Shown piece by piece: positions 4,301 through 40,000 of a stretch of DNA of 51,454 nt. The notes under the pieces are model-generated. The model saw only the letters and a program-made list of their open reading frames with translations, had not been told where the DNA came from and did not search any database. Position 1 is the first letter of the stretch. The number at the start of each line of letters is the position of its first letter. Source of the stretch: Saccoglossus kowalevskii (lineage: Eukaryota; Hemichordata; Enteropneusta; Harrimaniidae). A program made the translations under genes and the position numbers. Where the stretch lies: positions 390,585 through 442,038 of the forward strand of contig NW_003140813.1 in the NCBI RefSeq assembly GCF_000003605.2. The letters are read 5' to 3'.

Positions 4301-4789
4301 ATCAAATTGTTGCTCGATGTTTGTACGCTGTAAAGATGAACATAAAATCAGGATTAGCAATTTGTGAACTATCAATATTGTTATATCTTTACACAGTAAA
4401 AGTAGCTCCAGGGCCTGCACACAATACTGTATTGGCCACTATCCGAATAATATCTAGTTTTGCCTTAACAATTAATCTTTCACAAATGAACAAATTGGCA
4501 CCTCTGGTCCGCTGCACAGTGAATAGATTTTGTTTTGATTCTATGAGGGAGAATCATACTATTCTATCCATTTTATTTGCAAAAACACCTGATAACCTGG
4601 TAACACCTGGTAACAATGTATTCGCTGATTGACTACTAGAATTTCGCATATGGTTCGGCAGTCGTTGCCAGTACGATAATTAAATGTGTTTATACAGTAA
4701 ATTTATGACTTTTGGTTTCAACTACACGTATTTAGTTTGCCAGGTGTAGGGTCCCACTAGTGGGCTGAATTTAAATTAAAAGAATTTAC

Positions 4790-5025
4790 CTTGTACGATC
4801 TTATAGCAGAGCTTGGGTGACCCGTTTTTTCAGCGATAACGTGTTCATCCACTTTACCCCTGTACAAATGTGTGGCTGCAGCTGCTCGCAAACTGATTGG
4901 TATAATATCCTGAAATTCCCGCATTTTCAGTCTTCCCATTGTCTTTGTAAGCAGGTGTGATTGAATACCAATAACTCGCTTTATTTTTCGGGCTGGCTGC
5001 AAATAGTACGCTTGTTCTGGTAGAT
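4790..5025 (-). CDS. Exon encoding the C-terminal half of a Crypton-type tyrosine recombinase domain
   Basis: Read on the minus strand, this 236-base segment encodes about 78 residues matching the end of the Crypton/DUF3504-type tyrosine recombinase domain. That domain is found in Crypton transposons and in domesticated proteins such as ZMYM2 and QRICH1. In order: an AYYLQP element near the start, SLRAAAATHLY (arginine box), VDEHVIAEKTGH (GH box) and AIRSYK with the tyrosine. The histidine usually two residues before SLR is isoleucine here (IPISLR), so catalysis may be lost. The tyrosine codon is followed by AAG and then a good donor, gtaaat, at 4789-4784. A CAG acceptor ends at 5026, and an alternative TTTAG acceptor would start the exon at 5033. 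The frame stays open past the donor to about 4757, so read-through is also possible. The rest of the recombinase was not found; the exon may be a domesticated gene fragment or a Crypton remnant. Confidence 0.6.
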
Positions 5026-5139
5026 CTGGTGGACTAAATAAGGTAAAATGTTATTTAAACGAAATTATTGCACCATTAACACAAGTATATATCAGAAGGA
5101 GGCATGTGTTCATTACGAGTGGAATGAATGTTGACAAAC

Positions 5140-11781: not shown

Positions 11782-14648
11782 CTGGACAATGGAGGAGAAA
11801 AAAAAAAACATATCAGCTTTTCATTTAGTGACATCATGTGACATTTGTAACATCATTGACAGGTAAAGACCATTTTCATACAATATTGTGAGTACTGTAC
11901 AAGGTAATTCTGGAATACGTTTGTAATTCCATTTCTATTGTGCTGTTCATGAAAATGAAATTGCAGAGTATGTACGACTAAATTGAGTCTCATCAGAACA
12001 CTAATAATATATAATTAAGTGTGTCTACATAATCTTATCAAGTAGAACAACATGGAAGACATATTGTGAGGTTCTATGTTTTTGTATGCACTTGAATGTT
12101 TTTTTATATAAGCTATCCTGATGAATGCAGAAGTGAGTTGTTATACTACTGTGTTATCAGCAATGACAACCATATTTAAAATCATCACTAGAGCAAGTCA
12201 TAGTTCAGCATGTGTTTGAATCACCCAATGTACAATTGAAAAACCATTTTGAAAATGAAAAATGAGTGAGTCCTGAATTAAGTCACTGTTTCTATAAATT
12301 GTTCAAGGAAGGATTAACATATTGCATTGGTTATGTTCATAAAAGGGGGAATAATGAACAAAGTATAGTTCAAGAAGGGACTTGAATAACTCACTTTCGA
12401 CAGTTTATTAGCAGGCCAAAAGAAAAAAAAAATATTTGAATTATGAGCCTTATTTGAAGGCTTGTTGATGAATTTTCAATTCACAAGTAATTTCATTACA
12501 TAGTCCCTGTGAGTTCTTAGGTTTAAGAAATATATTTTTTTTTAGTCAGAGATATGCTCTAAAACTGCAATGACTGAAGCAAGATAGCTACCAGTCAAGC
12601 ACTTTGAGGCTGATCTGACAAACAAAGTTACGATCCCATAAAGTTCAAATCTAGGGAAAATGATGTGCGCTAAGGTCCCCTTCTGTTCAATGGACATACC
12701 AAGTTTGAACAAAACCTGTCTATGCATGACCAAATCCGATTTCGATGAATTTTTAATATTAACTGCGATTAGATCATCTTGAATCGGATAACTAAATGAA
12801 TGAATAAGCACATGTGCGACATGATGTATATTATAAACTTTGAATATGATCAGTCAGGACATGTTGGAGGTATATTCATTAAAAATAAACTGGCCACCAG
12901 CTGGCAATTTTGAATCCAATCTGAAAACCATGTACATCATGGTCCTATATTGTTCAATATTTGTACCAAGTTTGAAATCCGGTTCAGTAAAATGGTTGTC
13001 TTTCAGCTACCTTGAATCGGGTCATGAAACAAATTGATGTGCATGTGTCACCCAAAGTATGTGATGTATTTGTAATCAGATATGTCTGAGATGGAAATGG
13101 AACTACACACACACTTGCATGTACGCATACACACACAGAGGTCAAAGCATAAGTTCCATACAGGAACTGAAAAGCCCAAGTAGGACTGTAAAATACTTTA
13201 TTTTTGATGGAAATAATTTTCCTTGAATAGACTTTTTGAGTGTTTTGTATGGATTTTATTTTCACTGATTTTTGTAATCAGTTTGGAATGTGAAAAATAG
13301 AATAAAAGGGTATATTAATTGGATTTTATCTCACTGAATTATTCCTTCAGCGAAAATAAAGCATTCTACAGTATTTACCATTATGGGAGAATCACAAAGT
13401 TCACCTGCTCTTTGTCATTTATTTGATAGAGCTTTCACTCAGGGCCCAACATTTGTAGCATTTTTAAATTCCCCCATTTGTTAGTCATGTCAATTCATAA
13501 GCATTAAAAGATCAAAATCCGCACTCACCGTGTTTTCATAAATGGAGTTATAAGATTAGCTACGGTTGATACAAATACTAAAATTACTGCTAGTACTGCT
13601 AGTATGACGTTAATCAATTTGGTTAATAGTGCCCTTGCATTGGCATTTTCATACCCCTCTAATGTAATAACCTGCTGTTGTTGTTGGGCAAGTTCCATTT
13701 TGGAAATCTACAAAAAAAAAAGAACATCATTAATTTTGATTGTAATGTCTGGAATAGATGAGTGGCATGTTAAAGGGGAACCGCTCAATCTTATGGATTG
13801 CACCACGTGCTCATGGGTAATTAACTCTGCCTCTGTCCACTAAGTAAATGAATGCTTATTATGCTCGCTTACTCAAACTGTAATTGACAGGCATTTTGCA
13901 TACATTAGCCGCCATTTTAAACTAAGGATTTTTACTTGTCGCGGCACGTTTTGACCGAAAACAACAACATTTATACATCAAAAGCCCAACCAGAGGAGTG
14001 TAATTGCCAGCATACATATTCATGTCCCCGTAGAAATGTGTTTCAAATCACAGCTTGATCTCTAAACATGGTAAATGGCACATTTCCAGGAGCTCTCGCC
14101 ACGATAAGAGCGGCTTGGTTGGGATTAGCATACTAATTGTACTAATAGTATCGTTTTCCCCTTTTAAACTTGCACTTTGGAATAGTATTCAGTTTTTTAT
14201 TTCCAGTGTTTTAGCTAGATATATACTTTCTTATGATTTTAGATAATGTTCACACACATGAATTCAGACATAGATGCAATACTGGAAAATAGAAGGTCGG
14301 ATCTGGTTGACCGCCTCAAATATATTCCATAATTCATGCATATTCATGTCTTGAAATACATAAAGTGCAAATTTAATGATGTATGATCTTGAAGAAGGAA
14401 CAAATCCTGCATCTTTTCGTACTGGGATTTAATGCAATCAGCAGTTCAACTACTATTAGAGTGTCTCTATGGTAACATAGTGAAATGTGCTTACTCTTTG
14501 TTTGACATTGTTCTTAAAGCATCCTGTATATCTCTTTGGCACGTTCATCAGATTGATACTCCACTTTTTTTTCCATACTTGAATTTTTGTTTTAAATTCA
14601 TCATTTCATTTTGAGAAGTTCAGATAAATTTTAATTGTTTTTCAAGCC

Positions 14649-14696
<48 letters not shown>

Positions 14697-17600
14697 CTGT
14701 GACAAGCTGGCTGATTAAGAATGGTTAACCCACTTTTGATACAGGAATTTCATGAAACTTGTGACTGCACCAAGGATTGAATATGGTTTTTTTTTTCATA
14801 GAACCCCAATTCTATGTATTTTAACCATTTTTCAATCCAAAATAACTACCAAAATAAGGCTACCAGAAACAAAATGACATAGTTTCCATGGAAACAAGTT
14901 TAAATGCATCCTCTTTTTCTTTGCCAGTTGATGGAACCTTTAACTCAATTTTCAGAAAATAAAACCTGTATAATTTTTTTTCTTCAAAAATTTTGAGCAA
15001 TTATGTACAATTATTACAAAATTAACCAAGAAATTACAGATGAATACATACAAATGTGTAAAATGTTTGAAAAAATTAGTATTTTTGACCTATCCACTGT
15101 GTCACACTACCTGGCACTAATAAGTATTTTGGTGGCCATGCCTGTATTTTATGAAGATACAAGTCTTCAACTTTATATAACAAAACATTATAATCAGGTT
15201 ATGTCAACCATCTGTTTTTATTGAGAAAACAGAATTTGTAAAGTTTGAAAACAGAGTAACATAACTGACCTCATATCTATATCTTTCTTCCTGTAATGAC
15301 TGGTTGAAGAATGTAAATTCCTGATCCATATGTACCTGAAGAACAAAGTGTGATTGAGTAAGGGATTTTTGTAGGCAACAAAATTTCTTGGGATTTCAAA
15401 TCACTGAAAAACCATGCAAAGTAACCCAGTTGAAAATGTCCTTATTCATCTGCACATGTTGTGCACATTTCACATGCTGAACAATAATCTATGGTTTTGT
15501 CTGGTGTATTTTTAGTAAGATCTTGTGACAAACCTTACAATGTATATATAAAAATTTCACTCTACTAAATAGTAGTGTAAGTAAGCAATGGTGGTGTAGG
15601 TTTAATAGTAGGCATTGTACGTGTAAGTTGGCAAAGGTGGAGCAGTTTGCATTGGTAGTGTGTAATTAGTAATGGTGGTATACGTGGCAATGGAAGTATA
15701 GCTGGCATTGGTGGTGTAGGTGGCATCTGTTGTATAGTTGGCAATGTATGTAGGTATAGTTGGCAATAGTGTGTAGGAGACAATAGTGATTTAGTTGGCA
15801 ACAGTGATTAGTTTTGCAGTTTACAATGGCTTTGTATTTGGCAATAGAGATTTAGTTGGCTTTGGTGGTATAGTTGGCAATGTTGGAATAGTTAGAAATG
15901 GTGGTGTAATTGGCAATGGTGGTTTAGCTGACACTAGTGGTATAGTTAGTAATGGTGGTGTAGTTGACAACGGTGGTGTAGTTGACAACGGTGGTGTAGT
16001 TGACAACGGTGGTGTAGTTGGCATTGGTGTTGTAGGTGGTGATGTAGATACAGATGGCAATGAGGTAAAGATGGCAATAGTGTGCAGGAGACAATGATGG
16101 TTTAGTTGGCAATGGTGGTATAGTTAGCAACGATGGTATAGTTGGCAATATAGGTGTAGTTGGCAATGGTGGCATACAATGTAGTTAACATTGTAGGTGT
16201 ACCGGGTAGTTGGAAATGTAGGCATATTTGGCAATGCATGTGTAGTTGGCAATGGTGGCATAGTTGGTAATGTAGGTGTAGCTGGAAATGTAGGCATAGT
16301 TGGCAATGGTGGCATAGTTGGTAATGTAGGTGTAGCTGGAAATGTTGGTGTAGTTGGCAATGGTGGCATAGTTGGTAATGTAAGTGTAGCTGGAAATGTA
16401 GGTATAGTTGGCAATGGTGGCAAAGTTGGTAATGTAGGTGTAGCTGGAAATGTAGGCATAGTTGGCAATGGTGGCCTAGTTGGTAATGTAGGTGTAGCTG
16501 GAAATGTAGGCATAGTTGGCAATGGTGGCCTAGTTGGTAATGTAGGTGTAGTTGGCAATGTAGATGTAGTTGGCATTGGTGGCATAGTTGGTAATGGTGG
16601 GTAGTTGGGAATATAGGTGTGGTTGGCAATGGTGGCATAGTTGGCAATGTACATGTAGTTGACAATAGTTGTAGTGTAATAATACATTGCATTCAAATAA
16701 AATGTACAAAACTCACACGTATCTTGTTACAAGACAAACAAACAAATCACTCACCTTGACCGTTTCCAGTGTGTGATGAAGCTCACTTTGTGCTTCTCTT
16801 ATTTCTTGTAATTCATTTAGCAATGGTTCTAAAGTCATTGTGCTACCATTTTGGTTGATGATTGGTGACGGTAAAACATTTGCAACAGACCCTGAAGTCA
16901 CACTACTGGTATCATCATGGTCATCAAGATCATCTCCAAATTTTGGGCTACAAAAAAAGCAACTTTGTTAAAAACATATTACCCCAAAATACTTGTTTCA
17001 AACGGGCCAGAATATTAAACACTTTATTTGGAAGATATAAATCGAACAGCTGAATGAACGCAGTGTGTAAAGACAAAGCTTCTTTGATGCCACATCATTG
17101 TGGACATTATTTGCCATTGGTTACAGAATTTGATCAAAAATTATTGGAAACATTTGGGAAATATTCTGTGAAATGACAAATGACTGACAAATATTAGTGT
17201 TTATAGGGTTAAAGATTAAATGTGCGCAGGCTTTCAACAACAAATTGTATGACTGCCGTACATGTACAAAAGCTGGTACACTAAAAACACATAGCAGTTT
17301 GCATCATGTGAACTAAACATAAACATTTGTTCTAAACACAGAATGGCAACTAACAAGCCATGCATGGCACAGTCCCTGTTAGTTACCATATTTAAGATAT
17401 ATTTTTTTTTTATTTATAGTAATATAGTTGGAACATAAACATGTCAGTGATATGGATCCAGAAGCTGATGCTTGATTATGATGACTTTTGAACATTAAAA
17501 TGGTTGATATTCAGACATCTTGTATCTGATCATCAAACAAGTACTTGTCCATATTGACAGATGGAAAAGCATTAATTAAACTGAAATAGCCACTGGTCAG

Positions 17601-20600: not shown

Positions 20601-23600
20601 TTTCTTTTCCCAGTGCTTTGTGTTCAGGTCAACATTTTTTGGAGGAAAAAATGAAGCATGAGTCGAGAGAAAAGATAATAGACAAATGTACATTAATCGG
20701 AACTGGGAAAAAAATTAGGAACATGCAGAAATAGGAAAAGACAAATCACATTGAAGTACATGTAGGTGGAGCACCAGATGAACCTTATAATCAATTACTC
20801 ATACTGTGTGGGTGAGATCATTTCAAGGGAATAGGGGTGATAGGTTTGGTGCATGTTTGCTGGGAGACCAAGCATGCTCAAAAAGGCTAAGATACAAAAT
20901 GTATGTTGATTAAACCCCAAATTTACAGGAGATCTTGATGAATGACATGAACATTCTAGAGTCAGGAAACATAGTAGTCTGGAATCTATGCAATCCTAAC
21001 ATCTGAAACCTCTTCATTATGCCAAGCATTGATGACTATTTTAACTCATGAAATATTCAGATTATTCAGAATTGGCAGTCATCGATGAAATACTCTCCAC
21101 TCATTGGCCAGTTTAATTGTTGCATGCTGGGAAATTCCCCCAAATCATGTGATTTATGAATAAATGACACCGCAGACAATCAAATCTATGGTCAAAAGAC
21201 AAACTGCAATCAATGGGCGTCGATGCTAGGCAAGTTGTAGAGGTCTAAGACTATGGAATGTGCATTGATTCTAGAATTGGAAGCGTACTGATAATTGAAT
21301 GAGACAACACAAATGGTATCGTACCTAGTTGGAATTGGTCTTTGCTGGTCTGTACTGTCTTCGTCTAAATCTATCAGGTGAAAAATCATAATTTGATGAA
21401 AATTAAGAAATGACTCTTAGATGTGCGCCAGTGAGGTGCTCAGTGGCAGCAGACTCATACCAGTGAGGTGCTCAGTGTCAGCTGACTCATACCAGTGTGG
21501 TGCTTAGTGGCAGCTGACTCATACCAGTGAGGTACTCAGTGGCAGCTGACTCATACCATTGTGGTGCTCAGTGGCAGCTGACTCATACCAGTGAGGTGCT
21601 CAGTGTCAGCTGACTCATACCAGTGAGGTGCTCAGTGTCAGCTGACTCATACCAGTGAGGTGCTCAGTTGCAGCTGACTCACACCAGAGTGGTGCTCAGT
21701 GGAGACTCATACCAGTGAGGTGCTCAATGCCAGCTGACTCATATCAGTGAGGTACTCAGTGGCAGCTGACTCATACCAGTGAGGTGCTGAGTGGCAGCTG
21801 ACTCATACCAGTGAGGTACTCAGTGGCAGCTGACTCATACCAGTAAGGTGCTCAGCGGCAGCTGACTCATACCAGTGAGGTGCTCAGTGGCAGCTGACTC
21901 ATACCAGTGAGGTGCTCAGTGGAGACTCATACCAGTGAGGTGCTTAGTGGCAGCTGGCTCATACCAGTGAGTTTACTCAGTGGCAGCTGACTCATACCAG
22001 TGAGGTGCTCAGTGGCAGCTGACTCATACCAGTGAGGTGCTCAGTGGCAACTGACTCATACCAGTGAGGTGCTTAGTGGCAGCTGACTCATACCAGTGAG
22101 GTACTCAGTGGCAGCTGACTCATACCAGTGAGGTGCTCAGTGGCAGCTGACTCATACCAGTGAGGTGCTCAGTGGCAGCTGACTCATACCAGTGAGGTAC
22201 TCAGTGGCAGCTGACTCATAACAGTGAGGTGCTCAGCGGCAGCTGACTCATATCAGTGAGGTGCTCAGTGGCAGCTGACTCATACCAGTGAGGTGCTCAG
22301 TTGCAGCTGACTCATACCAGTGTGGTGCTCAGTGGAGACTCATACCAGTGAGGTGCTCAATGCCAGCTGACTCATATCAGTGAGGTACTCAGTGGCAGCT
22401 GACTCATACCAGTGAGGTGCTGAGTGGCAGCTGACTCATGCCAGTAAGGTGCTCAGTGGCAACTGACTCATACCAGTGAGGTGCTCAGTGGCAACTGACT
22501 CATACCAGTGAGGTGCTCCGTGGCAACTGACTCATACCAGTGAGGTGCTCAGTGGCAGCTGACTCATACCAGTGAGGTGCTCAGTGGCAGCTGACTCATA
22601 CCAGTGAGGTGCTCAGTGGCAGCTGACTCATACCAGTGAGGTACTCAGTGGCAGCTGACTCATACCAGTGAGGTGCTTAGTGGCAGCTGGCTCATACCAG
22701 TGAGGTTACTCAGTGGCAGCTGACTCAGACCAGTGAGGTGCTCAGTGGCAGCTGACTCATACCAGTGAGGTGCTCAGTGGAGACTCATACCAGTGAGGTG
22801 CTCAGTGGCAGCTGACTCATACCAGTGAGGTGCTTAGTGGCAACTGACTCATACCAGTGAGGTGCTCAGTGGCAACTGACTCATACCAGTGAGGTGCTCC
22901 GTGGCAACTGACTCATACCAGTGAGGTGCTTAGTGGCAGCTGACTCATACCAGTGAGGTGCTCAGTGGCAGCTGACTCATACCAGTGAGGTGCTTAGTGG
23001 CAGCTGACTCATACCAGTGAGGTACTCAGTTGCAGCTGACTCATACCAGTGAGGTGCTCAGTGGCAGCTGACTCATACCAGTGAGGTGCTCAGTGGCAGC
23101 TGACTCATACCAGTGAGGTACTCAGTGGCAGCTGACTCATACCAGTGAGGTGCTCAGCGGCAGCTGACTCATACCAGTGAGGTGCTCAGTGGCAGCTGAC
23201 TCATACCAGTGAGGTGCTCAGTGGCAGCTGACTCATACCAGTGAGGTGCTCAGTTGCAGCTGACTCATACCAGTGTGGTGCTCAGTGGAGACTCATACCA
23301 GTGAGGTGCTCAATGCCAGCTGACTCATATCAGTGAGGTACTCAGTGGCAGCTGACTCATACCAGTGAGGTGCTGAGTGGCAGCTGACTCATGCCAGTAA
23401 GGTGCTCAGTGGCAACTGACTCATACCAGTGAGGTGCTCAGTGGCAACTGACTCATACCAGTGAGGTGCTCCGTGGCAACTGACTCATACCAGTGAGGTG
23501 CTCAGTGGCAGCTGACTCATACCAGTGAGGTGCTCAGTGGAGACTCATACCAGTGAGGTGCTCAGTGGCAGCTGGCTCATACCAGTGAGGTTACTCAGTG

Positions 23601-26600
23601 GCAGCTGACTCATACCAGTGAGGTGCTCAGTGGCAGCTGACTCATACCAGTGAGGTGCTTAGTGGCAACTGACTCATACCAGTGAGGTGCTCAGTGGCAA
23701 CTGACTCATACCAGTGAGGTGCTCCGTGGCAACTGACTCATACCAGTGAGGTGCTTAGTGGCAACTGACTCATACCAGTGAGGTGCTCAGTGGCAGCTGA
23801 CTCATACCAGTGAGGTGCTCAATGTCAGCTGACTCATACCAGTGAGGTACTCAGTGGCAGCTGACTCATACCAGTGAGGTGCTCAGCGGCAGCTGACTCA
23901 TACCAGTGAGGTGCTCAGTGGCAGCTGACTCATACCAGTGAGGTGCTCAATTGCAGCTGACTCATACCAGTGTGGTGCTCAGTGGAGACTTATACCAGTG
24001 AGGTGCTCAGTGGCAGCTGACTCATACCAGTGAGGTGCTCAGTGGCAGTAGACTCATACCAGTGAGGTGATCAGTGGCAGCAGCCTAACACCAGTGGGTG
24101 CTCAGTGGCAGCTGACTCATACCAGTGAGGTGCTTAGTGGCAGCAGACTCATACCAGTGAGGTGCTCAGTGGCAGCTGACTCATACCAATTATGGTGCTC
24201 AGTTGCCAGCTGACTTATACCAGTGAGATGCTCAGTGGCAGCTGACTCATACCAGTGAGGTGCTCAGTGGCAGCTGACTCATACCAGTGAGGTGCTTAGT
24301 GGCAGCAGACTCATACCAGTGAGTGTTCAGTGGCAGCTGACTCATACCAGTGAGTGCTCAGTGGCAGCTGACTCATACCAGTGAGNNNNNNNNNNNNNNN
24401 NNNNNNNNNNNNNNNNNNNNNNNNNNNNNNNNNNNNNNNNNNNNNNNNNNNNNNNNNNNNNNNNNNNNNNNNNNNNNNNNNNNNNNNNNNNNNNNNNNNN
24501 NNNNNNNNNNNNNNNNNNNNNNNNNNNNNNNNNNNNNNNNNNNNNNNNNNNNNNNNNNNNNNNNNNNNNNNNNNNNNNNNNNNNNNNNNNNNNNNNNNNN
24601 NNNNNNNNNNNNNNNNNNNNNNNNNNNNNNNNNNNNNNNNNNNNNNNNNNNNNNNNNNNNNNNNNNNNNNNNNNNNNNNNNNNNNNNNNNNNNNNNNNNN
24701 NNNNNNNNNNNNNNNNNNNNNNNNNNNNNNNNNNNNNNNNNNNNNNNNNNNNNNNNNNNNNNNNNNNNNNNNNNNNNNNNNNNNNNNNNNNNNNNNNNNN
24801 NNNNNNNNNNNNNNNNNNNNNNNNNNNNNNNNNNNNNNNNNNNNNNNNNNNNNNNNNNNNNNNNNNNNNNNNNNNNNNNNNNNNNNNNNNNNNNNNNNNN
24901 NNNNNNNNNNNNNNNNNNNNNNNNNNNNNNNNNNNNNNNNNNNNNNNNNNNNNNNNNNNNNNNNNNNNNNNNNNNNNNNNNNNNNNNNNNNNNNNNNNNN
25001 NNNNNNNNNNNNNNNNNNNNNNNNNNNNNNNNNNNNNNNNNNNNNNNNNNNNNNNNNNNNTCATACCAGTGAGGTGCTCAGTGGCAGCTGACTCATACCA
25101 GTGAGGTGCTCAGTGGCAACTGACTCATACCAGTGAGGTGCTCAGTGGTAGCTGACTCATACCAGTGAGGTGCTCAGTGGTAGCTGACTCATACTATAAC
25201 AGAATTACATTATTTCAACAATTTTAGCAGCCGAGATATGAAATATGAAAAACACACACAACATGGTGATGTGTTTTAGTCAAGAAATGAAAAAAAATTA
25301 GGTTACTTATAACCAAATATTAGCAACGATGTCAGCTGATGCTACCTTGACTTCTAGTAAAATCTGAATATGTTTGTATATGGATTTCAATGACATAGCT
25401 AGCATTGTGTGATGAGTTTTATATGTTTACTGAATATTTTGGTTGTTATAGAAACAAAGTAGCATTGACATTCCAAGTAATAGGTGGAATGTTAAATACA
25501 AGCATGAAGAAAATGCATTGTATTTTTCCATAATTGTTTTGGTGATTTTGAATCAAATGAATCTTGTTTTCACTGGCTACAGGACTTGATCAACATTTGT
25601 GAATAAATATGGAATAATCAAAAGCACTTTATTTTGTGAAAAATTGACTAAATTCAGCACTCTGCAAAGTGTTGGGTGACTGCTAAAATCAAAGAAATAA
25701 TATCAGGACCACTCAATTATTTTATTGGTCTGATAAACCTGCAAAATTTCAAACCCTGGCAGATTGTAGATGTGTTAATGAGAGAAGTGTCTTACTTACT
25801 CATTGTGTCAATATTGTCCGCACTTCCAAATTTATTCTTTATAAGATGAGCAAATTCTTTTGGTTTGGAGACAACAGCACTGTAGTAAGAATGAGAAAAA
25901 CTCCCAACTTAGGTGGCTTCTTATTTTTGACAGTGATGATTTATTTATATATTTATTTATACCTCTTGCCAAGTTATTGATTGCAATATACTGAGGACAG
26001 GGTGAATACAGCGCCCTCAAACTTCAAGTCTGTATTATTATTGTGCCTGTCACACTCGTACATGCATTACAGACAGGATACAAACTAGAGTCAGTTGCAG
26101 CTATCTGCACTCATATAAAAAATCACAAAGCAAATCTTGTGTATGTGTATGGCATGACATGGTGTCTGATTTACAGTATGTGTAAAGTTTGAAATTCATC
26201 CCTCAAGGCAAGTCAGAGATATGGATCAGGAACTGCAATCCAGCAGCCATTTAAAGATGTGCAACATGGATCATGAACCCATTGTGTTTAATGTATGTAC
26301 AAAATTATAGCTAAATCAGTCCACACATCACTGAATTCGGGAATGGCAAAAATGTGTGATTTTGATGTACTTTTGGTTTAACAATGACTGATATTTAGCT
26401 ATATTTGCTAACATGCCCCATGTACACATGAACTTTGGAACTTGATCGTTCCAGGAATGTTCAAATTACAGAGGTTAATCCACAATTCCCAGTCTTCATA
26501 TGGATACTCACAGTCGTTCACAAGACCAGTATGTGCAGGACTTGACATGGGGCAGCATAAATCACTAGTCCACAGAACTAGCAATAAGAAATTAGTAGTT

Positions 26601-28023: not shown

Positions 28024-31000
28024 GTAACACTTTGCACTAGACACAGAGAGATGAAAGTAAAGATAACATATTCAAATTATCAACTTTATGTATTATTAAG
28101 AATTATTTAACAAATATGGTATGAATGTATGCATGAAGAATTATTAAATATGCCTTTGTTTTCCTCTTCAATTGTTTAAATATTATGTTTAATCTGGTAA
28201 CTTATCACCCCCCTACATCACATCCTAGTAAAATACTCTCCCCTCCTATATCCTAGAAAAATAAAACATGCGCAGCAACTAACTAACAAAGCCTACTGAC
28301 AACTATTATTATTCTACCTCTGAAATAAATACCCCCCTCTGCACTTCTAAGTAATTACTTGGTCTGTTCCAAAACACTTGTCCTACAGGCTAATCTACTA
28401 TGGAATGGGGAGGGCTTACCTTCCTGCAGTGTGTGCAAATTCTGAAAGGCCAGTAAGACCACCTCTAATGTTGTCAGCCATACCACTGTGAAAATATGAA
28501 AGATGATGCATGCAATGCGTACTGTACCAATTTCGCATATTAAGGCCACATTTGTGTCAGAAAATAAAACAATGAAATGTTATCAAGAAATTGCCAAACA
28601 AAATATAAAAAGTAATATCAACATCACTGCCAGAGTATAATTTGGTGTGATCAAAATGGCCCTAAACGTGTCAGCTTATTTTCACAACTATTGGAGTTTT
28701 AGTTAGTTTTTAACATTACCAATTTGATTTATGCGAAAATGGTACTATGACCTTCCACCAGTTAAACATAAATAAATGGATGAAAAAAAACAGAAATAAT
28801 CAATCCTATTGAGAGTATGTAAAGTTAAAATATAAATAAACAAGGTGATGATGATGATAGGCTTTAAACAGCGCCCTCACAGGCATTAATGACATTTGAT
28901 TTTTAAAGAACGTGGCTGTATTAATCAAATGGGACCTTTATTTACTAGTCTTGAATTAAACAAGTTTATAACATATACCCTAGTAATCGCCCAGAACCTA
29001 ACTTCAGAATGACTGTACTATTCTATTTTTCTTTGTGAAATCAGACACTGCAAGGAGAAGGCAGACTTCCAATATGGCTGCTCACCATGACAACATAATG
29101 ACAAAGATCCACTGGCAGTCACCAACAAGTTAAATGGTCCTTGAAATATGCCTCAATTTTCTCAATAAAATGTTATGTGCGTGGGCCTATGTTAAATATG
29201 GTATCTATGAGAGTGATGCGTGTTGGACATTTATTGATATAGATTTGCGGGTCTGGGCATTTTACACTTCTAGACTAGATGGAATTATGCTGACTAGCAT
29301 TGACTTGCTGTGTGACATCATAGAACACACAGGATTTCAGCTTTAAAGGCTGCTATTGAGTTATCTACAGCTAGCAAAGGAAACTCAAAAAGAGCACAAA
29401 CAAACTACCAGACACTGTTCTCTACAGATAAAGCATTTCAGCATGAAAGCAAATTTACATAATATTAAGCTAATATACATATAATTTGCATAATACAGAA
29501 CAATGTGTGTCATTATATTACAAGCTGCCTCTGTTATTATGATAGTGAGGACAACAACACCAACATGCTTAAAATGTGTGAGGACTGTGTTTATTCGCAT
29601 TCATGATCACTTTGTTTGTCATTTCTCAATCATAATATCATTCCCAGATTCCACATCACCTTCGTCATGATGACCAACTTACCCAGAAAACCCTGATATT
29701 CCATCACGAATATTAGCACCAACACCCCTGCAAAAATAATAAGTATCATTTACTGGATTGTTGTATAACGAGCACCACAATAAACTGATCAGAAAAATTA
29801 CTATCTCCCTCGAAATATTGTTAGCAATGTCTGTTATGACTTCAACCATAAATTGGAAAGTGAGAACACTCATTTACACTATATTTGACAGAAGTTCTCA
29901 AAATTTATAATAAATGTTTGTAATATGTCTCAATTTTTCTGATAAAATGTTATGCGTGAGGGTATCTATGACACTGGTGAGTGTTGGATATTTATCGACA
30001 TAGAATTGTGGGTCTGGGCATTTTACACTTCTGTTTTTTTTACTTTTCACACAATACTTTTGCTCAAGATCTGACTTTATTTGAATTCAAATAAATCTAT
30101 AAAACCCTTTTGAAAATGAGTTCATCAACTCTCAACGTACTGAGATTCAATCAAAGTTGTTTTCACTGCAATTTAGTTACGTGAATCCTTTGTGAAAATG
30201 GATGTGTCCAAGGAGTATAAGGAGATTTGGATTGAAAGTACTGAAGACCGCTGGGAATGTTCTCAGGAACATCGCAATGTTGCAAGAAAAACTGATAGAG
30301 ATAGCGGTATATCTCAAGAGTTTATTTTGTCACTCCTAGTACTTTATTCAGTATTCAAACAACAGATGACTGCTGAATATGATATAAAGTAGATAATATT
30401 TAGTAGTCCTTGTCCTAAATAATCATTCAAAATAGCTAGACGTTTCGCGCAATACCTCTTTATTGATAACATTTTTAAAATTGTCAACTATTGTAAAATC
30501 TGTATTAGAAGCTGCGGTTTCTGTTAAAATGGTACAATGTTTAAGAAAGTGATGCAACATCTATTAGAGCGTCTACACATATGGGAAATGATGAATTTTT
30601 TGTTTTCAATTGTTCAAAAAGAATAGGTGCAAATTCTATTAGAAATATGGCTTCTAATACAGATTTGCAGTATATATAATTTTTATAGGTCCGAGTAGCA
30701 TTTAATTATTTTATTGTCGGATATAATTTATATTGCCTGCTTACTTACTTGAGACCTTGATGCATTCCTTGAAGAACCTCTTTAGGTTTCCTTGGGGGTG
30801 CTCCGTTTGCTTCCAAACCTCTTATTCGCTCCTGGTATTTTTCTAATTTTCTTTGTAACTGTGCGATTACAGAATTTGATTTTTGATTTTTCTTTTCAAA
30901 AACTGTTTTGATCCTGGCAATCTGTTGTTTGTCAGCATGTTCAGCTAACTTCAAGTACTCGTTAACGTTTTCTGAAATTGAAGAAAGACTGCAACCGTGA

Positions 31001-34000
31001 AAACCCATAATGCGACAGTGAAAATATCTTCTGTCATGAACACATCAGATATAGGTACACGTACCATCTCGTTGTGTCTGTTCCGCCTTTATTTGCTCCT
31101 TTATTCGTAAAATCTTTTGTTGATATTGTTCGATCATTCCCTTAGCTCGTAAGGGGTCCGGCGTATGTCCCGAGTCAGCCTCATCCAATGTGGAGAAGTC
31201 TGCATCGGTACTATTGGACACCGCAAGATTCTCACACTGTAAGAGAAATCACAAAATATATGACAGATGTATACATAGGTGTGTCCCCTTAATAGCATCA
31301 AAGAGAGGAAATATCATGCTTGATTACCTTAATATTTTTCTTACATATAAAAATTGAAGTAAAAAAACACAACGAATACCAGTTCTTCAACAAACCCCAA
31401 GCTATATGCAACTTTCAGTATGGACGGATGCAGTGGTTTTTTGAGACAATCTTTACCACCTGTCGCAGAATTTGTCGAAAAATTTCACGATAGTGGATGA
31501 ATCAACGTCCAAGCAAAATAGATTGAAACTGTAACCACTTGTCACCTTAGAAACCGTGAAGATGCGTTGTAGTCGCTTAACAGACATCAGATTATTGAAG
31601 GTTATTCAAAAAGCACTGAGAAATGTCCAATAGTCTTAAAACCTTTTTTTGCATATATGAGATAGAAGCAAAGCTCAATTCAACAGATGTTAATTTTAAT
31701 CTCATTTCAGGTATCAGCAGCCTGAAGTAGTTGGTAATTTATTTTTAGATTTTACTATTTGCTTCCAGGCACAGCATTTGTACAACATACCAAATATGGT
31801 GATATTACATTGTATATCACATGGATAACGTCACTGAGACTACTACGCAGCGATATTGTGCATAACAAATTGTCTTTGCTGCACTGCTGCTGTCCCGGTC
31901 GTTGTTGCTTTCAAGGTTTTGAAGGAACTTCAGCCATCCAACATAGAGAGCAAACGTGCCAGAAGATAGTAAGATAATCTGTTTTTGTGTTTAGGCTATT
32001 CTTTATCTACAGCAAATATGTACAGCCGCCACTGAAACGACGCATCCGGGATCGATGCAACACTTTATACACTGTTAGTGTTCTGCATGTGCCACGCTGA
32101 TGCTCACCGAGAACGCTCAAAACTTGTGACTTGTGAATGCAGATAGAAGGTGTAGTACGTTCTCATTGCAGTCACTTCCACGCCGTTCTGACATTTTTAT
32201 CTGACGAGTGGCAAAATAACTTGTGTTTAAGAATTTCTCAGTTCATTTCAATAATTTTATACTCAACATTTAATTCATACTACTCAAAGTAACATTTACT
32301 GTGTATTTCGCAGTTTTTTTTCAAACAATGTATGTAAGTATGCTATTGAGTAATGTGTCACTTGTTATAATAAATGAAATACAAAAATTGCATTCAAATA
32401 TAAGTGTTGTTATTTTGTGGGATAGCTGATGTGAGGGATGTGGTGAATGCCTGTTCGATGTGATAAAATAAATAACACATGGTCATGGGGCAATGCCTGA
32501 GGGATGATGGTCATGACCAGCAGCCTGAGATATTACCCTCATAAACATGTGTTATTATTTAAATAAGGATATTGTGCAAATTGAAGTAACCACAAGAACT
32601 GTGAGATGACACACTGTTCCCTTGATCTATAATTCAATGATCATGCAATATATCACTTTTCAGATTTGGTTTGGTTTTATATGCTGAGCTTGTTCCTCCA
32701 AGCCATAATCATTACATTTGACAACGTCCTTTCAAGACAACTTACTGATTCCTCCTCACGATCACTGGAATGTCTACTATCAATAAAATCAGCTGCTGAA
32801 GAACTACCAGCTCGTGATCTGTTGCCATCACGACTGACATCACCGCTATCACTTCCTCCTGACTTGGTACGATGTACTGGTAATGTGGCCGCTTTATTCC
32901 CGGCGCTAGGTGGACGACTTGATTTGGTATCTATTGCTTTCCTCCTACAACAGTGAATAAATGTAATACCAGTTAAACAAGCCATGCATGGCACAGTTCA
33001 TGTTAGTTATCAAATTTAAGATATATAGTTTTGTTTATAGTAATATAATTTGAACATAAAAATGTCAGAGATATGATTCCAGTAGCTGATGCTTGATTAC
33101 AATGATTTTTTAACATTCAAATGATTAACATTCAGTCATCTTGTATCTGATCTTCAAAGGAGTACTGATTGAGAGATAATGCTCTGGAACAGCATTAATT
33201 AAAACAAAATGGCAACCGGTCGGCCATTTTAAATCGTGTTACATGTATGTGTAATATGGGACCCAAATGTGTATATGGTGTTATGTGCAGTATGGGTCCC
33301 ACATGTGTATATGGTGTCATGTGAAATATGGGACCCACATGTGTATATGGTGTTGTGTGTAATATGGGACCCACATGTGTATATGGTGTTATGTGAAATA
33401 TGGGACCCGCATGTGTATATAGTGTTATGTTATATGGGACCCACATGTGTATATGATGTTGTATGTAATATGGAACCCACATGTGTATATGATGTTATGT
33501 GTAATATGGGACTCACATGTGTATATGATATTATGTGTAATATGGGACCCACATGTGTATATGGTGTTGTGTGTAATATGGGACCCGCATGTGTATATAG
33601 TGTTATGTGAAATATGGGACCATACTAAATACACACAGTTGCAATCACCTTATGTACCTTTACATAGACAACATGATTAAACTACTGTAACAGCAAAATT
33701 TACTAGAATATCTTTCAAAGTGCCTTCATTAGTTCAATGTACATCAATCAGCACAACAATTCTATTCCAGCTCAGATCAGGAGTTTGAATTCAACTTTTA
33801 TAGGACAATAATACATCTGAAACACCGTGCCTGTGTTAGCATATGATACGTGTATACATGTACCCCTAAGTAGCGGCTTTGCGCAACGCTACATGTAGTG
33901 AATTACCATGAGTGTATTTTAGTGTGGTGGTTGAGGTGAATTGTAACTGTACCAGCAAAAAACAAAAAGCGTTGTATGCAAATGAAAGAGGAAAATTTTG

Positions 34001-37000: not shown

Positions 37001-40000
37001 TTTGCATACTGAATTATTGAAAAAAGTATAATTTTGACCATGGACACACCACTGTCATACTTTGTAACTAAAATTTTAGCACATGCACTGATACGGCAAT
37101 GTACATGTACATAATAAATCTAAACCTGCTACACATACCAAGACTGCTTCACAAACTGGGATGAATACATAAGGTAACGAGAGAGACATAATGAAAGAGA
37201 CGATATCCACTCTGTGTATCATGTACGCACACATTACTGTGATAAACAGAACCACGATCAATAAAGATCAATATTTGTAAGCTGGTAAGTTTCACTTTCT
37301 AACAAAAATACATTTTCGACAAGTGGAACAGAGATACGATGGAGATCGATGGCAATTATCATAAGTGAGATCATTTGTAAAAATGGGAATGTAAACAATG
37401 CACTTTCATCAACAGCCAAATTTAACGCAAATGCATGAAAAGTTCCCTACTTTTACAAATAGTTTACTTGAATGTTCTACAACGACAGTGTCATGAGTTT
37501 GCTGTTGAATAACATCAGTATTGTCTACAACTGATATGCTAATGAGTCATACAATGTAAAATAGTTCCATCTGAAAGTGAGTTTTTTATGCATTCTTGCG
37601 CAAATTATCAAGAGCCATGAAATAACTAATGTAAATTAGTCATGTGTCTATTATGTAATTCTAAGTATTTTCACAGCAAATTCAAAACTTTAAGTAATTT
37701 TGTTCTGTTTCACTGTATCTAACACACTATTTCACATGGTAGATTTAAAAAACAAAATACTTCTCATAACACAAGAATAAACCTGTTCTGATCAGTAAAT
37801 ATTAAAACATAGCAATGCAACTTTCTTCCACTGTTGCCACAGTTGTCAAACCAGTCTCATTTGATGAGGCCACTGGAACGCAATCTCAGCTACATGTGCA
37901 TCCCATGCATATCATAGTGATACTGATGATTGGTCTGATCGGTAAATTTAGATAGCATGCCTGCCGCTAATCCGGTGTCGGTCACATGACCCATGTCAGG
38001 TCACATGATCCATGTCATGCAAATAGCTAGAAATAAATTGTTATTCAAACACAAATTCACTAGCAACATGTGAATAGACACTGTTTACATTTGTATAGAC
38101 ACTGTTTAAATTTGTATAGGCACTGTTTACATGCGTATAGACAGTGTATACATGTGTTTAGGCACAGTTTACATGTGTATAGGCACAGTTTACATGCGTA
38201 TAGGCAGTTTACATGCGTATAGGCACAGTTTACATGTGTATAGGCACAGTTTACATGTGTATAGGCACAGTTTACATGTGTATAGGCACAGTTTACATGC
38301 GTATAGGCAGTTTACATGCGTATAGGCACAGTTTACATGTGTATAGGCACAGTTTACATGTGTATAGGCACAGTTTACATGTGTATAGGCACAGTTTACA
38401 TGTGTATGGACACAGTTTACATGTGTATAGACACTGTTTACATGTGTATAGACACAGTTTACATGTGTATAGGCACAGTTTACATGTGTATAGGCACAGT
38501 TTACATGTGTATGGACACAGTTTACATGTGTATACTATACACATGTGTATGTCTATACAGTATAGACACTGTTTACATTTGTATAGGCACTGTTTACATG
38601 TATACATGTATAGGCACTGTTTACATGTGTATATGCACTGTTTACATGTGTATATATACTGTTTACATGTATACATGTATAGGCATGTTTACATGTGTAT
38701 ATGCACTGTTTACATGTGTATATGCACTGTTTACATGTATACATGTATAGGCACTGTTTACATGTGTATATATACTGTTTACATGTATACATGTATAAGC
38801 ACTGTTTACATGTGTATATGCACTGTTTACATGTGTATATATACTGTTTACATGTATACATGTATAGGCACTATTTACATGTGTATATATACTGTTTACA
38901 TGTATACATGTATAGGCACTGTTTACATTTGTATATATACTGTTTACATGTATACATGTATAGGCACTGTTTACATGTGTATATATACTGTTTACATGTA
39001 TACATGTATAGGCACTGTTTACATGTGTATATATACTGTTTACATGTATACATGTATATGCACTGTTTACATTTGTATATATACTGTTTACATGTATACA
39101 TGTATATGCACTGTTTACATGTGTATATGCACTGTTTGCATTTGTATATATACTGTTTACATGTATATGCACTGTTTACATGTGTATATATACTGTTTAC
39201 ATGTATACATGTATAGGCACTGTTTACATGTGTATATATACTGTTTACATGTATACATGTATAGGCACTGTTTACATTTGTATATGCACTGTTTACATGT
39301 GTATATATACTGTTTACATGTATAGGCACTGTTTACATGTGTATATGCACTGTTTACATGTGTATATATACTGTTTACATGTGTATATGCACTGTTTACA
39401 TGTATACATGTATAGGCACTGTTTACATGTGTATATGCACTGTTTACATGTGTATATATACTGTTTACATGTATACATGTATAGGCACTGTTTACATATG
39501 TATATGCACTGTTTACATGTATACATGTATAGGCACTGTTTACATTTGCATATGCACTGTTTACATGTATAGGCACTGTTTACATGTCTATATGCACTGT
39601 TTACATGTGTATATGCACTGTTTACATGTGTACATATACTGTTTACATGTGTATATGCACTGTTTACATGTGTATATATACTGTTTACATGTATATAGCC
39701 TGTACACCCCATGTAATTTAATTTACATGTATGCATAAATTAAAAATTTCCCCAAAACAAGCAAATAATGCAGCTCATCTTTTTAACAAGATTTGTGAGA
39801 GTGGAGAGAAAGAATACCAGACACATGACAGCACAATTCACAAATGACGTCACAAAGCAATACATAACATGCTTAATTATTCATAAAGTTGTTTGATTCA
39901 GACAAACCAATAGGTACAAAAACTATACGTAGAATAGTGACAGATGTATTTTATCAATGTAGCATTGGAATAACTTGACAAGAGCTTAATTCCTCAAAGG

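Follow-up and report, generated by a model that had tools for sequence, protein, structure and literature searches.

Small insertions and deletions left in a consensus sequence can mimic pseudogenes by putting frameshifts and early stop codons into coding sequence that is otherwise conserved, and the excerpted text of three reports describes cases of this kind (PMC12007338, PMC8812927, PMC11017572). The locus studied here shares that signature. As excerpted, those reports concern small or bacterial genomes, whereas here only one exon is affected, exon 13 of a gene of the TMCC family. For the human member TMCC1, the excerpted text of PMC3891740 describes a protein that is cytosolic when it lacks its membrane segments. 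We propose that this TMCC-family gene is ordinary and presumably works, and that its broken exon most likely reflects an error in the local consensus, with a probability of about 0.75. This explanation fits best because the exon carries several indels but shows no substitution decay, and because a rare homopolymer of a gap-prone type lies only five bases away.

The window, that is, the whole 51,454-nucleotide stretch of Saccoglossus kowalevskii DNA analyzed here, carries on its minus strand the sole TMCC-family (PF10267) gene seen in the 572-Mb assembly. A search of that assembly (4830 contigs) with the PF10267 profile returned three matches at E ≤0.001, all of them exons of this gene, which exceeds the curated family cut-off of 32.8 bits. 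When six exons were scanned singly, two cleared the cut-off on their own, three fell below it and the last coding exon gave no match. The coiled-coil exons and the C-terminal hydrophobic exons match the family in order; the gene departs from it in that exon 13 is frame-broken in this assembly, the rest being ordinary. The features on which the analysis draws are as follows.

31065..31236, minus strand: exon 3, preceding the exon at 30748..30972; intact; PF10267 22.1 bits, below the cut-off alone
30748..30972, minus strand: conserved coiled-coil exon as scanned ("exon 4"); intact; its first base is the G of the acceptor; PF10267 99.3 bits
28420..28485, minus strand: small exon; a splice-bounded open segment
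25797..25880, minus strand: exon with approximate ends; open; among the matches of the genome family search
16755..16947, minus strand: upstream exon; intact; PF10267 13.6 bits, below the cut-off alone
15270..15332, minus strand: in-frame part of exon 12; intact, with phase 0 at its end; PF10267 17.4 bits, below the cut-off alone
14655..14693, no strand assigned: homopolymer A39, read as T39 on the coding strand; 5 bases upstream of exon 13
14496..14649, minus strand: exon 13; reading frame broken in the assembly; placed by frame-tolerant alignment
13528..13707, minus strand: exon 14 as scanned; intact; starts in phase 0; first hydrophobic segment; PF10267 90.1 bits
11655..11781, minus strand: last coding exon; intact; second hydrophobic segment and stop codon; no Pfam match alone

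Ten exons were placed besides exon 13, and all ten are open. An earlier note, which counted fifteen exons, had described all 14 others as clean; this holds for the ten for which it was checked. Frame-tolerant alignment of six of these exons found no frame change in five, and in exon 3 it introduced two cancelling operations that sum to one codon. Exon 3 reads straight through in one frame, and the two operations are a weakness of the alignment method. Against a human TMCC1 sequence entered by hand, exon 14 is identical at 45 of 60 residues and positive at 51 of 60, the exon at 30748..30972 is identical at 49 of 74 (zero frame changes in either), and exon 12 is identical at 10 of 21. The hydrophobic stretches, one in exon 14 and one in the last exon, were judged by eye, and the membrane region of that human sequence is where exon 14 aligns.

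Exon 13 was aligned to the corresponding region of the same hand-entered human TMCC1 sequence. The frame-tolerant alignment is identical at 35 of 49 residues (71%) and positive at 46 of 49, contains no internal stop, and passes through five frame changes, near 14631, 14614, 14583, 14536 and 14514. It scores 154, whereas 200 base shuffles of the exon reach at most 46 and the reversed protein 27, which excludes a chance match. Stops are present in all three frames, while the conserved blocks, EQCQTK among them, align across the frame changes to the human coiled-coil region in the correct order, as the earlier note had described, and spread over more than one frame. The number of changes depends on the frame-change penalty. 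Each of the four penalties from 4 to 12 gives five, a penalty of 16 gives three and a TAA, and penalties of 20 to 40 give a single change and two stops, so that the three length changes and TAA reported earlier are right as to the breakage but as a count hold only at penalty 16.

Both boundaries of the exon are also irregular. The in-frame acceptor boundary lacks its AG; at the donor, GT comes one base late, with base 14495 sitting between the in-frame exon end and the GT. The exon runs from 14649 to 14496, and the span of 14495-14693 given previously was too wide, taking in the homopolymer and the base before the GT. Neither an N gap nor a contig end lies at the site. Phase is 0 both at the end of exon 12 and at the start of exon 14, and the frame would therefore survive the skipping of exon 13, as had been predicted.

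When constraint is lost, substitutions normally far outnumber indels. Among human variants, single-base changes exceed indels by about one order of magnitude, according to the excerpted text of PMC5543596. We simulated the decay of 156-base stretches from two intact exons and kept the runs with at least five detected frame changes. A loose test, which exon 13 passes, asked for no stop, at least 46 aligned residues and a loss of at most about six similarity points. With indels only, 355 of 421 and 344 of 378 simulated decays passed. The passing fraction fell to 115/376 and 194/380 at a substitution:indel ratio of 2, to 36/385 and 56/355 at 5, to 6/331 and 21/286 at 8, and to 3/294 and 13/228 at 10; with up to 7% passing at a ratio of 8, and more at lower ratios, the loose test is not absolute. 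Under a stricter test, in which 93% of the intact score had to be kept, 162/421 and 204/378 passed with indels only, against 0/331 and 1/286 at a ratio of 8; placing exon 13 itself on this test needs its intact score.

Exon 13 retains 3.76 match points per residue, compared with 3.69 and 3.29 in the stretches of the two intact exons. Its conservation is therefore comparable to theirs, and the excess of substitutions that would mark an old neutral pseudo-exon is absent from it. What it has is what consensus errors would leave, indels in a conserved coding exon without substitution decay. Neutral decay at the usual ratios of substitutions to indels seldom yields this pattern. Taken together, the simulation and the score per residue make an old pseudo-exon unlikely and leave two readings, an error in the consensus and a real lesion that is very recent and made up mostly of indels.

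No A/T run in the window exceeds 14 bases other than the homopolymer beside exon 13, which the earlier note had correctly placed next to it. Across the assembly, A/T runs of 32 or more number 48 by one count and 50 by a mirror control, and runs of the class of A39 occur about once per 11.5 Mb. Flanks were taken for 48 runs, excluding the window's own, with 2 kb on each side for 14 and 350 bases on each side for 34; among the 14, one flank was shortened by a contig end, and the run L036, which abuts an N gap, is known from the listing alone. An N gap lies within 350 bases of 6 of the 48 long runs and in 1 of 114 control tiles (Fisher p 0.003). The tiles, of 738 bases each, came from the window and from nine readable baseline stretches, three of the 12 stretches drawn having been dropped as all N; two stretches just before the window were left unused, one being all N and the other having 4102 N among 10000 bases. 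This excess of gaps suggests that such runs tend to mark places that are hard to assemble.

Long runs can nonetheless lie near coding sequence that reads cleanly. An intact bHLH exon lies 42 bases from a T33 run (L072), an intact pyruvate-dehydrogenase-kinase-like exon 109 bases from a T45 run (L088), and an intact F5/8 type C (discoidin-like) exon 132 bases from an A32 run (L086). The Pfam match of the kinase-like exon is weak (E 0.047), and solved PDK structures match it at 2.5e-7; the discoidin-like exon reaches 23.3 bits, below its family cut-off of 27.8. They come from seven scanned run-adjacent candidates, all open, splice-bounded segments, of which the other four, including an open one 22 bases from its run (L044), gave no family match; no recognized exon lies as near as 5 bases. 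A search of open segments misses broken exons, so the three are counter-examples and not a rate. They indicate that a long run need not bring errors at distances of 42-132 bases.

Several further features of the long runs were recorded. Run L036 abuts a gap of 50 N, and run L048 stops 57 bases short of a contig end. By eye, the pairs L065/L076 and L079/L089 are long poly(A) runs with similar flanks, as if they belonged to interspersed repeat families. A T49 run in L045:1460-2068 lies inside a tandem repeat array and seems, by eye, to interrupt the repeat unit. A retroposon origin of A39 was also considered and rejected as a candidate, there being no exact target-site duplication, and the sequence after the run recurring in the window as a mere 10-mer 27 kb away.

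A real and recent lesion, in which small indels have shredded exon 13 in the species or in the sequenced haplotype and exon 12 joins exon 14, is unlikely in our view but fits several of these observations. Its product would have a shorter coiled coil and keep the membrane anchor, phase 0 at the two junctions would preserve the frame on skipping, and the in-frame acceptor AG is missing, as expected for a skipped exon. The three recognized exons that remain intact near other long runs also mean that homopolymer-linked error is not established as a rule. However, such a lesion would have to comprise some five indels and hardly any damaging substitution, in an exon as similar to its human counterpart as this one, and it would strike the only TMCC gene seen in the assembly. 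It would also remove part of a region with a known role, since the excerpted text of PMC3891740 reports that the coiled coil adjacent to the C-terminus is required for TMCC1 self-association, and the 52 residues would not, we infer, amount to a whole number of heptads. The more specific scenario, that a very recent shower of indels beside the T39 tract destroyed a coiled-coil exon of a single-copy TMCC gene and that exon skipping now gives a shorter protein, is slightly more doubtful again. A real lesion here would make an elegant example of an exon being lost next to a long homopolymer.

Two other explanations are much less probable. Decay of duplicated exons is common, and exon 13 could be an old relic, with the working copy residing in a second exon of the same introns, in a paralogue or in a haplotype copy at another place. 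We regard this as highly improbable, given that substitution decay is lacking in the exon and that the searches turned up no second copy. The exon 13 DNA matches one place in the assembly, itself; the peptide finds the broken exon alone (E 0.22); no further match to the exon-13 part of the protein was seen in the window below E 1; and introns 12 and 13 contain no N gap. A copy in an unassembled stretch is possible. The least probable explanation is that a retroposon inserted here, left its poly(A) and broke exon 13. The resemblance of A39 to a poly(A) tail and the paired runs with similar flanks elsewhere speak for it, but the blocks of exon 13 hold their places and their order although the run is just 5 bases away, and an insertion would leave the indels within the exon unexplained.

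A consensus error at this site thus remains our preferred reading. In the animal, exon 13 should encode about 52 residues of conserved coiled coil directly before two membrane segments. Sequence beside the 39-base T run may have been hard to read, align or polish, so that errors were retained, and these would have left several one- or two-base length errors in the exon 13 consensus, together with the damaged acceptor and donor boundaries. Both the technical origin of the error and any stage to which it might be traced are inferred. The earlier note had already pointed to consensus error near the poly(T) tract; indels without substitution decay support such an error, whereas the homopolymer is a candidate cause, the three intact exons near other runs speaking against it as the sole one.

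These alternatives have different consequences for the protein. If real, the frame-broken exon 13 would end the protein before its membrane segments, while skipping would keep the frame at the cost of about 52 coiled-coil residues. Annotation from this assembly calls for caution, as it might list the TMCC protein as truncated or exon-skipped, or the gene as a pseudogene.

The introns hold repeats of several kinds. Those of intron 12 were tried as a local gauge of error and set aside, the intron matching 12 other places in short fragments of 70-88% identity that are too diverged for the purpose. A satellite with a 32-base unit occupies 21428-25194 within an intron of the gene, with about 93 copies and about 4 more beyond a 675-base N gap that interrupts it. 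Long minisatellite arrays lie between exons of the gene at 15673-16666 and 38066-39698, with units of about 18 and 21/48 bases, respectively. An open frame on the minus strand at 4757-5050 resembles, by eye, the end of a tyrosine recombinase, presumably of the kind found in Crypton-type mobile elements.
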